Positions 497 to 5,918 of a stretch of DNA of 7,114 nt are shown piece after piece. Within the stretch, counting starts at the first letter, position 1. Every line of letters starts with the position of its first letter. The stretch is from NCBI RefSeq assembly GCF_900188395.1, contig NZ_FZOB01000020.1, forward strand, positions 1 through 7,114. The letters are read 5' to 3'. The notes under the pieces were generated by a model. The model ran no database searches, was not told where the DNA came from, and worked only from the letters and a program-made list of their open reading frames with translations. The translations under genes and the position numbers were made by a program. This stretch comes from Desulfurobacterium atlanticum (lineage in GTDB: Bacteria; Aquificota; Aquificia; Desulfurobacteriales; Desulfurobacteriaceae).

Positions 497-512
497 GGGG
501 GGTGTTATAATG
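497..512 (+). promoter_or_regulatory. Ribosome binding site and start codon before the repeat tract
   Basis: A purine run AGGGGGGT (G6 at 497-502) sits 7 nt before ATG 510-512. This is the only convincing start signal upstream of the PP-loop ATPase. It is decisive because the ATPase frame itself has no ATG, GTG or TTG between an in-frame TAA at 449 and the SGGKD loop at 611-625. Confidence 0.7.
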
Positions 513-1399
513 AGAAGAGAAGAGAAGAGAAGAGAAAAGAAAAGAAAAGAAAAAGTGAAATAGTAAATCTTATTAAAACAAGATCTATTAAGAAAGTTTT
601 TCTTTTATTTTCTGGGGGTAAAGATGCTTCCGTGATGGCAGATGTAGTTTGTAGTGTTATGAATTTTCTTCCTTCAAACGTAGAAGTCTCTACTTTAACA
701 GTTAAATTTCCAAAAATGATATATGACCCGGATAATATAAATGAAAGAAAGAGAATAGAGGAAGTTTTATCTTTCTGGAAAAATATGGGTTTTTCTCATT
801 TGTGGTTAGAATCGGAAGAGTTTGATGATTCTTTATTTGAACAATATCCTTTGACTCCGTGTGTGGCCTGTGAAATTGTTAAATCTAAAGTTTTGTTTAA
901 CTTTATTAATTCATGCGAGGATACTGCTTTTTTAATCTCACATACGCTTGATGATGTTTTTGGCTATTTAATAGAAAGTCTTTTTCTTATCATACCTTAT
1001 GAAAGGTGGGATATTTTAGAAAAAGAAAACTATTCTTTGTTTGAGAGAGTTGCACAGTTGCAGAAAAGAGTTTATAAGTATTTTGCTTATAGATCATGGA
1101 GGAGAAAAAACGTATTTATATATAAACCTATTTTAGATTTGTCAGAGTCTGAAATTACTAAAATTATAAAAATCAGGAAGTTTCCTTTGATAGAAGAAAG
1201 TTGTCCTTTAAAAGCCGGGAGTAATTTTGTAATGTTTAAACGTTTTATTCATAGAGCTGTAGATTGGTTGAGAAAGAGATATGCTGATGATAGGTTGATA
1301 TTTGAGAACTACGAATCTGTTATTGAATTTTTCAGGAAGAAAAGTTTATTGATTCCAAAGCACATTATAGAAAACATGGAAATTAGGAGTGGCATATGA
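510..1399 (+). CDS. TtcA-like PP-loop ATPase, out of frame with its start (probably phase-variable, OFF)
   Basis: This is an ATP pyrophosphatase of the TtcA/TilS-type PP-loop superfamily, which adenylates an RNA or nucleotide base for thiolation or amidation. The body is read in the frame ending at 1399; the first NTG codon in that frame is GTG 632, but the nucleotide-binding loop SGGKDAS (611-631) precedes it. The real start is therefore upstream, most likely ATG 510. Removing one pentamer gives about 294 residues. In that numbering: PP-loop 33-39, CVAC with C116 and C119, HTLDD near 143-147, KPILDLSESEI, and a third cysteine in SCPL (C230). This CxxC plus distal Cys pattern matches the 4Fe-4S ligands of TtcA, as does the length. 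The N-terminal zinc-finger cysteines of TtuA are absent. The stop overlaps the flavodoxin start (ATGA). The coding sequence is markedly AT-rich. The substrate is unknown. A sequencing or assembly error in the repeat, or gene decay, are the alternatives to phase variation. Confidence 0.8.
513..552 (+). repeat. Pentanucleotide microsatellite, (AGAAG)4(AGAAA)4
   Basis: There are eight uninterrupted 5-bp units, four AGAAG (513-532) and then four AGAAA (533-552), all purine on this strand. The tract begins at the codon right after ATG 510. As sequenced, that ATG encodes MRREEKRREKKRKEKVK and stops at TAG 561-563. A change of one unit shifts the reading frame. Seven or ten units, instead of eight, would join ATG 510 to the PP-loop ATPase frame. 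The tract has the form of a slipped-strand contingency repeat. The first half is also a homopurine mirror repeat. Confidence 0.9.
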
Positions 1400-2647: not shown

Positions 2648-3610
2648 TTAAATGTAAATTATCTGTTCCTGTGAAGGAGGATATTTCTTGACCTTTTCAT
2701 ATCCGCCGCCGGTGATGTGGATTAGAATCTTTTCATCTGGGTTTAATTCATTGTTTTCTATTGCTTTTAAAACGCTTGCGATTGTTACTCCTGCTGAGTA
2801 ATCTATCTCTTCTTCAAGGAACGATTCAAAAGCACTTTTAGCTTTCAAAAGTTCCTCATTTGTTATCCCGTAAATTTTTCCACTGGTTTCTTTTATAAGG
2901 TTTGAAAGAAGTTCTATATTTGTTCTTGCGTTGCTTAAAACTTTCGCAAGGATCTTTTCTGCAAGTTCTGGGGGTGGTAGTGGTTCACCTTTAATGGCAG
3001 AAAGGACAGGTGCATAAGGCAGATTCTGAGAAAGGTATAGTTTTGGCAGTTTTCTATTCAGAGATTTTGCTGTTTTGTAAATGCTTAAAGGTCCAACACC
3101 ACCAGAAACAGCCTGAAAGTAAACATCAAACTCTGGTAATCTTCTAAAAAGTCTGTAAAGTCCTTTTATTCTCCATTCGTTGTTTAAACCACCTTCATGT
3201 TCATACCTTTCAGGATTTTCCTTAACAAGTTTCTTTGAAAAGTCTATGGCATCGTTATATTCACCTTTAACTGCGTATATAGTTACGCTTTTGGATGGTT
3301 TTACAGGAATTTTCAGATTTTCAAGGGCGTATTCTGGAAGCACAATAGTTAAAGGTCTTTTAAGAACAGATGCTTTGTAAAAGAAAGCTCTTGCAACATT
3401 TCCTGCAGAAACGACTACAAGCTCTTTACTTTTGCGAAAATGAAGTGTAAGTCCTGTTATGTAATCTTTAAAAGAGCCTGTGGGGCATTTTGCCTTAAAC
3501 TTTTCAAAGTATCCTGAAAGAAGAATTGTTATATTTTTTCTTCCGAAAAATTCTTCAATAAATGGGTGTCCTTTTAAAAGTGAGGAGAAAAGAATCGACT
3601 GAATGGTCAT
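2648..3610 (-). CDS. PLP-dependent fold-type II enzyme, cysteate/threonine synthase-like
   Basis: This 320-residue protein belongs to the beta-family of PLP enzymes. The segment GSFKDY (45-50) supplies the probable Schiff-base lysine K48. SAGNVARAF (68-76) fits the substrate-carboxylate/cofactor asparagine loop. SGGVGP (169-174) fits the glycine-rich phosphate-binding loop. Read as a whole, including LSQNLPYAPV (193-202), it resembles archaeal cysteate synthase (O-phosphoserine plus sulfite to cysteate, in coenzyme M synthesis) more than a standard threonine synthase, whose N-terminal domain is longer. This is memory-based similarity, and the substrate is open. ATG 3610 follows TGGAGG (complement of 3615-3620) with a short 4-nt gap. 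It is the last gene of a three-gene minus-strand operon, 13 nt after the second radical SAM gene. Confidence 0.75.
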   Translation of the reverse strand: MTIQSILFSSLLKGHPFIEEFFGRKNITILLSGYFEKFKAKCPTGSFKDYITGLTLHFRKSKELVVVSAGNVARAFFYKASVLKRPLTIVLPEYALENLKIPVKPSKSVTIYAVKGEYNDAIDFSKKLVKENPERYEHEGGLNNEWRIKGLYRLFRRLPEFDVYFQAVSGGVGPLSIYKTAKSLNRKLPKLYLSQNLPYAPVLSAIKGEPLPPPELAEKILAKVLSNARTNIELLSNLIKETSGKIYGITNEELLKAKSAFESFLEEEIDYSAGVTIASVLKAIENNELNPDEKILIHITGGGYEKVKKYPPSQEQIIYI

Positions 3611-3623
3611 AAAGCCTCCAGAT

Positions 3624-4658
3624 TTAGCAGGAAAGATTTTTGCATATAGCTTCTGTTTTCTCTATCAAAGATGGACATAGAGATGTTTTTCTTATTTTAC
3701 ATCCGCCGCAAATCTCTTTGTATTTACAATTTACACACTCTTTGAAATAGTTTCTGTCAGCGTATATCTTTGCCATTTCACTTTCAAAGATTTTATCAAG
3801 GGAAGTTTTTTGCAGATTTCCTATCGATTTTTGTATAAGCGGGCAGGGGTAAACGTTTCCTTCACTTGTCACGTAAACAAAATCTTTCACTGCCCTGCAT
3901 CCGGGGAATACCTTATAATAGTATGGAGGAACAAATAAACCTTTCTCTTCCATCTTTTTTAGAACAGCCCAGTAGTGGGGAACAGTGGTTGTGCACAGGG
4001 CAAGGTCTTTGTATTTGCACTGAAGTTCATATATAGTTTTAAGGGATTCTGCTATTTCGTCTGTTTCCATCTCTGCATGGGGAAGTTCCTTTTCACCTCT
4101 TCCCATCTCAACATAGTGGAAGATTATAAGTATATCTGCACCTAATTTGTGACTTAATTCAACAATGTATGGAAGGTCATTATAGTTATATTTTGAAAGG
4201 CAGGTTGTAATTCTAAGAGGGATATCGTGCTTTCTAACAAGCTCCGCTCCTTTAACTGTTAGGTCAAAACTTCCTTTACCTCTTAAAAAGTCGTGGTTTT
4301 CTCTTTTTCCATCTATTGCCACTATGATGTCGTCAACTCCGTAATCTTTGAATTTCTTTATCAGATCGTTAGTAAGGTAAGTTCCGTTTGTTGGCAGAGA
4401 AACGTAAAATCCAAGTTCCTTTGCATACTTAAATATGTCCCAGAAATCCGGGTGCATTGTTGCTTCGCCACCTGTTAAGGTTACTTTCTTTCCTGAAGAA
4501 CACAGTCCATACTTTGAAAGGTTAAGTTCCTTATACTGGTCTAAAATACCCTTCCAGAAGAAACCTGGAAGGGCATTTTTATCTATATTGGTAATGTAGT
4601 GGCAGTATTTACATTTAAGATTGCAGGCTTTTGTTATGGAAAGTTTAAGGTCATACAT
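3624..4658 (-). CDS. Radical SAM/SPASM protein
   Basis: This is a 344-residue radical SAM enzyme. The 4Fe-4S cluster that cleaves S-adenosylmethionine is bound by CNLKCKYC (C12, C16, C19), only eleven residues from the N-terminus. GGEA (63-66) is the SAM-contacting motif, with alanine in place of the common proline. The C-terminal half has a SPASM-type set of cysteines for auxiliary clusters: C254, C272 (in VYPCPL), C308, C311, C317, C320, C328 and possibly C339. SPASM enzymes modify peptides, sugars, cofactors or tetrapyrroles; which applies here is unclear. The ribosome binding site AAGGAG lies inside the last codons of the previous gene. Only 3 nt separate the two genes, so they are translationally coupled and probably act on one pathway. 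No precursor peptide gene is visible nearby. Confidence 0.85.
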   Translation of the reverse strand: MYDLKLSITKACNLKCKYCHYITNIDKNALPGFFWKGILDQYKELNLSKYGLCSSGKKVTLTGGEATMHPDFWDIFKYAKELGFYVSLPTNGTYLTNDLIKKFKDYGVDDIIVAIDGKRENHDFLRGKGSFDLTVKGAELVRKHDIPLRITTCLSKYNYNDLPYIVELSHKLGADILIIFHYVEMGRGEKELPHAEMETDEIAESLKTIYELQCKYKDLALCTTTVPHYWAVLKKMEEKGLFVPPYYYKVFPGCRAVKDFVYVTSEGNVYPCPLIQKSIGNLQKTSLDKIFESEMAKIYADRNYFKECVNCKYKEICGGCKIRKTSLCPSLIEKTEAICKNLSC

Positions 4659-4661
4659 TTA

Positions 4662-5858
4662 TTACTCCTTAATGTTCTTTATAGGACACATAATATCTTC
4701 ACCTAAGAAACTACCTGTTTTTGCGTAGGCTCTTGCTCTGCATCCGCCACATTCTTGTTTAAATTCACACTCTCCGCATATACCGCCAAGTTCTGGTTCA
4801 TAGCCATGTTCTTTCCTGAAAGCTTCTTTCAGCTCTTCAAGTTTTGCAGGATTTTTAACTTCGTCAAAACCGTAAATATCAGGGTTAAAACCTCTTGCAA
4901 GTTTTATGGCTTTAAAGTCTGGTGTTTCTATCGCAATTTTGCTTAATTTCTTTTCTCTAATGTTTCCAACTTTCATCGTAACGTATGCACATGGCCACAC
5001 ATCACCGTTTGGAAGGATGTGAAATCTTGTTATACCTGCAGGGCACCCTATCGGTTTTACTCTTGGAAATACGTTTATCTTTCCTTCTTTGTATTCTTCT
5101 GTCATTTTCTCTTTAAGCCATAGGGTATAGCAGGGGGAACAGATAGGTTTTAGCCATACATTTGTTGTTTTCTGCCTTTCGTAGATATATTCAAATACTT
5201 CCTGTGCTTCTTCAGGTGTTAGGTCTGGTAAATCTTTTCCCCTTCCTGTGGTTATCAGAAAAACAAAGTAAATTCTGTATGTCCCAAGTTCTTCAGCAAG
5301 GTCTATTATCGCCGGGATTTCATCTTTGTTAAGTTTTGAAACTGTGGTGTGAAACTGGAATCTTAATCCCATTTTTTTTGCAAGCTTTAAATTTTTATAG
5401 ACTTCGTCAAAACATCCTTTAAGGCCTCTTATTTCGTCGTGCTTTTCACCAACACCATCTATTGAAACGCCGACTCTCCACATTCCTGCATCAAGGAGTT
5501 TCTTAATGTTTTCTTCAGTTAGAAGGGTTCCGTTTGTTGCCATAACAAGCTGCATCCTTGTATTTTCAAAGGCAAATTTTATGATGTCATAAATGTCTTC
5601 CCTTAAAAGAGGTTCTCCACCTGTGATTGCAAACTTCACAGGTCCAAAGTTTTCCCATATATCCATTATAAGAGCTTTTGCTTCCTCAGTTGTAAGTTCA
5701 TCAGGCCACTTTTTGTTTTTTCCAGACTCTATTGAGCAGTGTTTACACTCAAGATTACATTCGTTTGTGCATGCCCAGACAAACTCTCCAGGCAGATATG
5801 AAAAGCAGCCAAGTCCAACGGTGTCATTATCAAAGATATATTCAAGATTAACAGCCAT
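4662..5858 (-). CDS. Radical SAM/SPASM protein, NirJ/AhbD-like
   Basis: This is a 398-residue radical SAM enzyme, first gene of the minus-strand operon. The cluster motif CNLECKHC gives C34, C38 and C41, and TGGEP is at 79-83. The C-terminal SPASM region has C272, C290 (GDVWPCAYV) and a terminal block CGECEFKQECGGCRARAYA with C361, C364, C370 and C373, then C391. An extra ICSPC pair (C240, C243) and the GCRARAYAKTG block recall the heme d1/alternative heme enzymes NirJ and AhbD, so a tetrapyrrole or peptide substrate is possible. I cannot choose between them. The open frame extends 13 codons further (to 5897), but I start at ATG 5858 because a perfect AGGAGG lies 5 nt before it, and the extension has no such signal. 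Confidence 0.85.
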   Translation of the reverse strand: MAVNLEYIFDNDTVGLGCFSYLPGEFVWACTNECNLECKHCSIESGKNKKWPDELTTEEAKALIMDIWENFGPVKFAITGGEPLLREDIYDIIKFAFENTRMQLVMATNGTLLTEENIKKLLDAGMWRVGVSIDGVGEKHDEIRGLKGCFDEVYKNLKLAKKMGLRFQFHTTVSKLNKDEIPAIIDLAEELGTYRIYFVFLITTGRGKDLPDLTPEEAQEVFEYIYERQKTTNVWLKPICSPCYTLWLKEKMTEEYKEGKINVFPRVKPIGCPAGITRFHILPNGDVWPCAYVTMKVGNIREKKLSKIAIETPDFKAIKLARGFNPDIYGFDEVKNPAKLEELKEAFRKEHGYEPELGGICGECEFKQECGGCRARAYAKTGSFLGEDIMCPIKNIKE

Positions 5859-5863
5859 TTTTG

Positions 5864-5869
5864 CCTCCT
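5864..5869 (-). promoter_or_regulatory. Ribosome binding site fixing the first radical SAM start
   Basis: The complement of CCTCCT is a perfect AGGAGG, 5 nt before ATG 5858. It would lie inside the coding sequence if the upstream ATG at 5897 were used, which argues for the shorter 398-residue protein. Confidence 0.85.
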
Positions 5870-5890
5870 TTAGTAAAATTCCCTTAAATT

Positions 5891-5918
5891 TTAACACATT
5901 AAAAGTTTCTATTTTTAT
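5891..5918 (+). promoter_or_regulatory. Candidate promoter of the heptosyltransferase gene
   Basis: TTAACA (5891-5896, five of six to the -35 consensus) and TTTTAT (5913-5918, four of six to the -10) are 16 nt apart. They would give a leader of roughly 18 nt containing the GGAGG at 5932-5936. The 84-bp gap between the divergent genes must also hold the radical SAM operon promoter. The best minus-strand -10 I see is TAAAAT (complement of 5888-5893), without a good -35. Confidence 0.3.

Follow-up and report, generated by a model that had tools for sequence, protein, structure and literature searches.

The question raised by this locus is whether a PP-loop ATPase gene of Desulfurobacterium atlanticum, which follows a tract of tandem pentamers and is out of frame with the start codon in front of that tract, is switched ON and OFF by changes in the number of repeat units, as had been proposed in a preliminary description of the sequence, or whether its layout has another origin. 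The window, that is, the whole stretch of 7,114 nucleotides analysed, corresponds to contig 20 in a genome of 1.74 Mb. Three of the 136 Aquificota genomes hold the ATPase, all from a single genus: that of the window, a Desulfurobacterium metagenome-assembled genome (G003), which holds a 91%-identical relative, L004 (JALSLT010000013.1), and G002, which carries a wrecked copy. No relatives outside the genus were found in the 136 Aquificota genomes, plasmids, phages or viral contigs, and a centre from another phylum was rejected as one. The features on which the argument turns are the following.

348-434, + strand: tRNA-Leu(UAA), the gene beside which the island is attached (ARAGORN, Rfam)
435-2641, + strand: accessory island of three genes, directly behind tRNA-Leu(UAA); empty site in two congeners; right edge approximate
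472-477, + strand: TATAAT, a possible -10 element; TATAATA is kept in all three copies
496-504, + strand: Shine-Dalgarno sequence AGGGGGGTG for ATG 510, with counterparts in L004 and G002
510-563, + strand: short ORF from ATG 510 to TAG 561; its ATG...ATAG layout is common to L004 and G002
513-552, + strand: pentamer tract, 4 x AGAAG followed by 4 x AGAAA (sequence, Tandem Repeats Finder, genome scan)
560-1399, + strand: conserved part of the PP-loop ATPase (NcsA/TtcA-like), in a frame open from 452 and at -1 relative to ATG 510; motifs SGGKD, CVAC, SHTLDD and ESCPL; dN/dS 0.24 versus L004
1396-1953, + strand: flavodoxin-like protein, its ATG overlapping the ATPase stop (ATGA); Pfam Flavodoxin_5, E 1e-4, under the curated cut-off
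1938-2570, + strand: NUDIX hydrolase, overlapping the flavodoxin gene; Pfam NUDIX, E 3.6e-13

Two start-adjacent repeat tracts

What the preliminary description had read in the letters was borne out. ATG 510 is preceded by a strong ribosome binding site (the duplex with the anti-Shine-Dalgarno sequence, at -12.8 kcal/mol, is the best of the region) and followed directly by eight 5-bp units, and its frame, encoding MRREEKRREKKRKEKVK in 17 codons, stops at TAG 561. The frame of the ATPase, which runs open from 452 to 1399, contains no ATG, GTG or TTG upstream of SGGKD. Loss of one unit or gain of two joins the two frames, as had been claimed: in silico, 7 or 10 units connect ATG 510 to the ATPase frame in products of 294 or 299 aa, while 5, 6, 8, 9, 11 or 12 units yield only products of 12-22 aa, the 8 assembled units thus corresponding to an OFF state.

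Tandem Repeats Finder describes the tract as 8.0 copies of period 5 at 512-551 with 97% matches, and its perfect runs are at most 25 and 21 nt long. The tract is beyond chance, because 2 Mb simulated under an order-3 Markov model contained no perfect pentamer run of at least 20 nt (the longest was 17 nt), and because the next-longest pentamer run in the 1.714 Mb of the host genome that was scanned (98.5%) measures 16 nt. In a published survey of phase variation (PMC5084427) the cut-off for pentamers was 4 copies, which the window tract passes and of which those of L004 (3.4 units) and G002 (2.2 units) fall short. Its make-up of an AGAAG and an AGAAA block, together with the differing lengths in the relatives, shows that the tract has grown or shrunk. 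As for other signals in the leader, a sigma-70 scan around 472-477 did not find a full promoter. A predicted RNA hairpin, formed by the tract with 594-614, was considered as a conserved signal and rejected: it is strong at 37 C (z -2.6), absent in the relatives, and nearly or wholly melted at 70 C.

The repeat scan, which covered periods 1-12 over the same 98.5% of the host genome, revealed only two perfect tracts of period 4-12 that are both beyond chance and frame-breaking. Besides the pentamer tract there is a (GAAA)12 array (L101:14866-14913, equivalent to G000:C9:34866-34913), located directly behind the ATG of a gene for an outer-membrane beta-barrel protein (Pfam OMP_b-brl_2, E 6.7e-21) whose start resembles a signal peptide; downstream of it follow genes of efflux type that read as TolC/HlyD-like. 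This gene is likewise OFF as assembled, and one unit more or two fewer would bring it into frame. Repeats next to the start of surface genes are the textbook form of a contingency locus, and the layout shared by both tracts, adjacent to ATG and OFF, is contingency-locus architecture; by a rough estimate, chance alone would place both long repeats of a genome no more than 15 nt from a start in fewer than 1 in 1000 cases. The position of (GAAA)12 at the start of a surface gene therefore makes it very probable that this genome has phase variation by simple sequence repeats (SSRs), with (GAAA)12 as its strongest classical candidate and the ATPase as the second. A GAAA array of 20 nt occurs in one other of the 136 genomes (G023), where it was discarded as a switch, lying inside a gene that reads as ribosomal protein S9.

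The island, its copies and its encoded enzyme

The preliminary description had overlooked that the ATPase belongs to an island. In two congeners, G001 and G002, tRNA-Phe and tRNA-Leu(UAA) are followed directly by a PALP-type gene, the counterpart of which ends near 2648 in the window, and because of this empty site positions 435-2641 are an insertion comprising the ATPase, flavodoxin and NUDIX genes. The island is present in the window and in L004, and the dS values between these two copies are 0.14 for the ATPase, 0.12-0.26 for the flavodoxin gene and 0.26 for the NUDIX gene, against 0.99 and 1.14 for the next two genes. Since the island values lie so far below those of its flanks, its spread most likely postdates the separation of the two lineages. 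In G002 the copy (L005:4400-4990) sits behind a different tRNA-Leu (CAG), so that this mobile island occupies two different tRNA-Leu genes in the genus. Neither an integrase, among its three cargo genes, nor a repeat of the tRNA end at its right edge was found. Next to the island, at 2648-5897 on the minus strand, lie genes for a cysteate-synthase-like PLP enzyme and two radical-SAM/SPASM proteins, both resembling AhbD/NirJ enzymes of the heme pathway; these genes are conserved in place in the genus. The contig end (6936-7114) falls in a repeat present at 16 places of the genome, mostly contig ends, which looks like a transposase C-terminus, its 56 residues having no Pfam match.

Comparison of the window with L004 also provided a measure of selection. 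Over 279 codons of the ATPase, dN/dS is 0.24, with 23 non-synonymous changes, against about 36 expected at equal rates, and 21 synonymous ones, against about 8 (binomial P about 2e-5; 0.03 under the harshest mutation bias assumed), and for the flavodoxin gene it is about 0.1. The two ATPase frames (285-295 aa) contain no internal stop and no indel, and neither assembled copy has a usual in-frame start codon for them. The ATPase is thus under purifying selection, which means that it is translated now or was until recently, its protein having been produced and used after the two copies diverged. The island of the window carries no lesion besides the out-of-frame tract. In L004 a 1-nt deletion at about position 1431 breaks the flavodoxin frame, the rest of the gene being conserved, and this is either a true lesion or an assembly error. 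The ATPase remnant of G002, with TAA codons at L005:4738 and 4942 and a truncation, is a pseudogene, in which the ATG, purine run and -1 layout are nonetheless preserved.

The leaders of the three copies differ in length and agree in phase. From the ATG to a conserved ATA the distance is 47 nt in the window, 17 nt in L004 and 11 nt in G002, values that are equal modulo 3; each copy is OFF and in the -1 phase, an agreement with a chance of 1/9 if phases are random, and each leader would turn ON with one pentamer fewer. The unit count in relatives, to which the preliminary description had pointed as a check, gave a divided answer: lengths do vary, but the relatives' tracts are short and every copy is OFF in one phase. 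No ON allele was found among the three known copies, one per species. The common phase may be a coincidence, an OFF state inherited, or the result of selection for the -1 layout. A mild hint that the overlap itself is kept comes from GAAGAGAAGAGATAGT, which is identical in L004 and G002 in spite of saturated synonymous sites (dS about 2), an identity expected by chance in about 6% of cases for the four codons R-E-E-I. In 8 viral contigs there is also a 20-nt stretch that matches the L004 leader.

With regard to the enzyme, the name TtcA-like had been given to it earlier. The resemblance is fair, but the scores are far below every family cut-off (20.3 bits for NcsA, with a cut-off of 500, and 18.6 bits for TtcA, with a cut-off of 272), a Pfam search returned no family above its cut-off, and a role in RNA modification would be conjecture. 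Numbered from position 512, the protein contains the SGGKD PP-loop, C117-x-x-C120, SHTLDD at 143-148 and a third cysteine, C231, in the order seen in the TtuA-like protein of the host, to which it aligns weakly (probability 4%). An AlphaFold model, built from an alignment with four short rows, reached a pLDDT of 48, and the top fold match of this poor model was NcsA (E 7e-4, TM 0.24), a hint only. Libraries of defence systems gave no meaningful match to the ATPase, and the host carries its own TilS and a TtuA-like gene elsewhere in the genome. The protein is NcsA/TtcA-like, yet outside the named families, and a reasonable guess is a tRNA or nucleotide thiolase whose iron-sulphur cluster would be served by the flavodoxin.

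Explanations of the out-of-frame layout

These observations are best integrated by assuming that the tract is an SSR contingency locus next to a start codon, carried by a mobile island and OFF in the assembly, a reading to which we would assign a probability of roughly 0.55. According to this model, translation would start at ATG 510, pass through the tract and enter the ATPase only with 7, 10, 13 and so on units; the 8 assembled units would lead to the stop at TAG 561, and slipped-strand mispairing, by adding or removing units, would turn the ATPase ON or OFF. Each of the other two genes, flavodoxin and NUDIX, starts within the end of the preceding gene, and both would probably be switched too by a polar effect: as their translation may be coupled to that of the ATPase, an OFF ATPase should lower both. 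The unit number would accordingly change within the population, and the enzyme would presumably thiolate or otherwise modify tRNA. The earlier claim of ON/OFF switching is thus upheld in part. In its favour are an exceptional tract in the right place, a gene under selection and the sister (GAAA)12 locus, which, being of the same design and at an outer-membrane gene, suggests that the organism carries contingency loci; against it stand the short tracts of the relatives, their identical OFF phase, the fact that one of them is a pseudogene, and the lack of an ON copy. The tracts of the relatives are below the length at which slipping is usual, so that a switch need not be assumed for the common ancestor.

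The same facts can be arranged as the history of a decaying gene locked in the OFF state, in which the -1 frame is ancestral or spread with the island, the ATPase is untranslated, its copies erode, and the repeat of the window grew later by neutral slippage. Three copies that are OFF in a single phase, the wrecked copy of G002, the frameshifted flavodoxin gene of L004 and the insertion-sequence-like repeat, whose 16 places at mostly contig ends suggest active genome decay, are all compatible with such a course. The dN/dS values of the ATPase and the flavodoxin gene, however, are too low for a silence that predates the split of the two copies, neither of the two long ATPase frames has acquired a stop or a further indel, and the like-built outer-membrane gene speaks for a system and not an accident, so that we regard decay as rather unlikely. 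A start-less frame under purifying selection might also be explained by recoding or coupling, that is, by a -1 frameshift from the short ORF or by ribosomes that stop at TAG 561 and reinitiate on the ATA overlapping it, which would maintain a low steady level of the enzyme and keep the phase while leaving the length free. It would account for a -1 phase kept across length differences of 6 and 30 nt and for the identity of GAAGAGAAGAGATAGT at saturated sites, and the ATAG overlap has the geometry of the common ATGA overlap. Nevertheless, ATA is a very poor start codon; no slippery heptamer (X XXY YYZ in the zero frame) common to the three tracts was found on reading their sequences; the predicted RNA structure is specific to the window and would hardly persist at 70 C; and the 1/9 chance allows the agreement in phase to be coincidence alone. 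This makes recoding or coupling an unlikely origin of the layout.

Two further possibilities carry far less weight. In the pil1 locus of Streptococcus gallolyticus (PMC3894217), GCAGA pentamers lie within a short ORF upstream, the default unit count is OFF, and in-frame changes leave it so. A similar device, in which the repeat would move the stop of the leader relative to a terminator and so change transcription of the island, matches the published design in having pentamers in a short upstream ORF and a default OFF state, but no terminator-like hairpin or attenuator was found at 430-720 and, given that the downstream gene lies in the open frame of the leader in one phase, direct frame switching suffices; we deem it very improbable. 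That the unit count is an error of sequencing or assembly is scarcely credible: although the window is a draft contig ending in a repeat found at many contig ends, ordinary reads span a 40-bp tract, and the separate assembly of L004, with its 17-nt tract, gives a like out-of-frame layout.

Under the favoured switch reading, a free-living thermophile would alternate the expression of a mobile tRNA-thiolase-like operon and of a surface protein, giving rise to a subpopulation with altered tRNA or nucleotide chemistry, perhaps for bet-hedging or defence, a consequence that we put forward tentatively, as a doubtful one.

Relation to known systems

SSR phase variation is known mainly in bacteria associated with a host, and in genes for surface structures or restriction-modification systems, as illustrated by the phase-variable genes of Neisseria and Haemophilus, such as opa with pentamers and lic and mod with tetramers. 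A search of the open-access literature retrieved nothing on phase-variable tRNA modification or on phase variation in Desulfurobacterium. Like those genes, the window locus presents a short tandem repeat with a unit that is not a multiple of 3, placed just after the start, so that the count sets the frame, and a second tract of this kind lies at a surface-protein gene of its host. It differs in that the host is a free-living thermophilic Aquificota from vents and the target is a PP-loop ATPase devoid of a signal peptide and located on a mobile island, as well as in being a candidate known from sequence, with relatives whose tracts are short and all OFF. With the pil1 leader it shares the default OFF state and the retention of that state on in-frame changes; it differs in that no terminator was found and that the ATPase frame itself joins the ATG.

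The island agrees with other tRNA-associated genomic islands in its position at the 3' end of a tRNA-Leu, with an empty site in relatives and a further copy behind tRNA-Leu (CAG) in G002, and departs from them in consisting of three cargo genes only, with neither an integrase nor direct end repeats. With the [4Fe-4S]-dependent PP-loop tRNA thiolases NcsA, TtuA and TtcA (PDB 6scy), the ATPase shares SGGKD, CxxC, H-x-LDD and a third Cys-Pro, all in the same order; in contrast to them, it scores about 20 bits with cut-offs of 272-500, lacks the zinc-finger ends and has a flavodoxin and a NUDIX hydrolase as partners. In the 1.714 Mb scanned, the host has only two long frame-breaking repeats, one at an outer-membrane protein gene and the other at a mobile tRNA-thiolase-like operon. 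If the proposed switch is true, SSR phase variation would reach beyond the systems compared here, to thermophiles that are free-living and to a target that may modify RNA.
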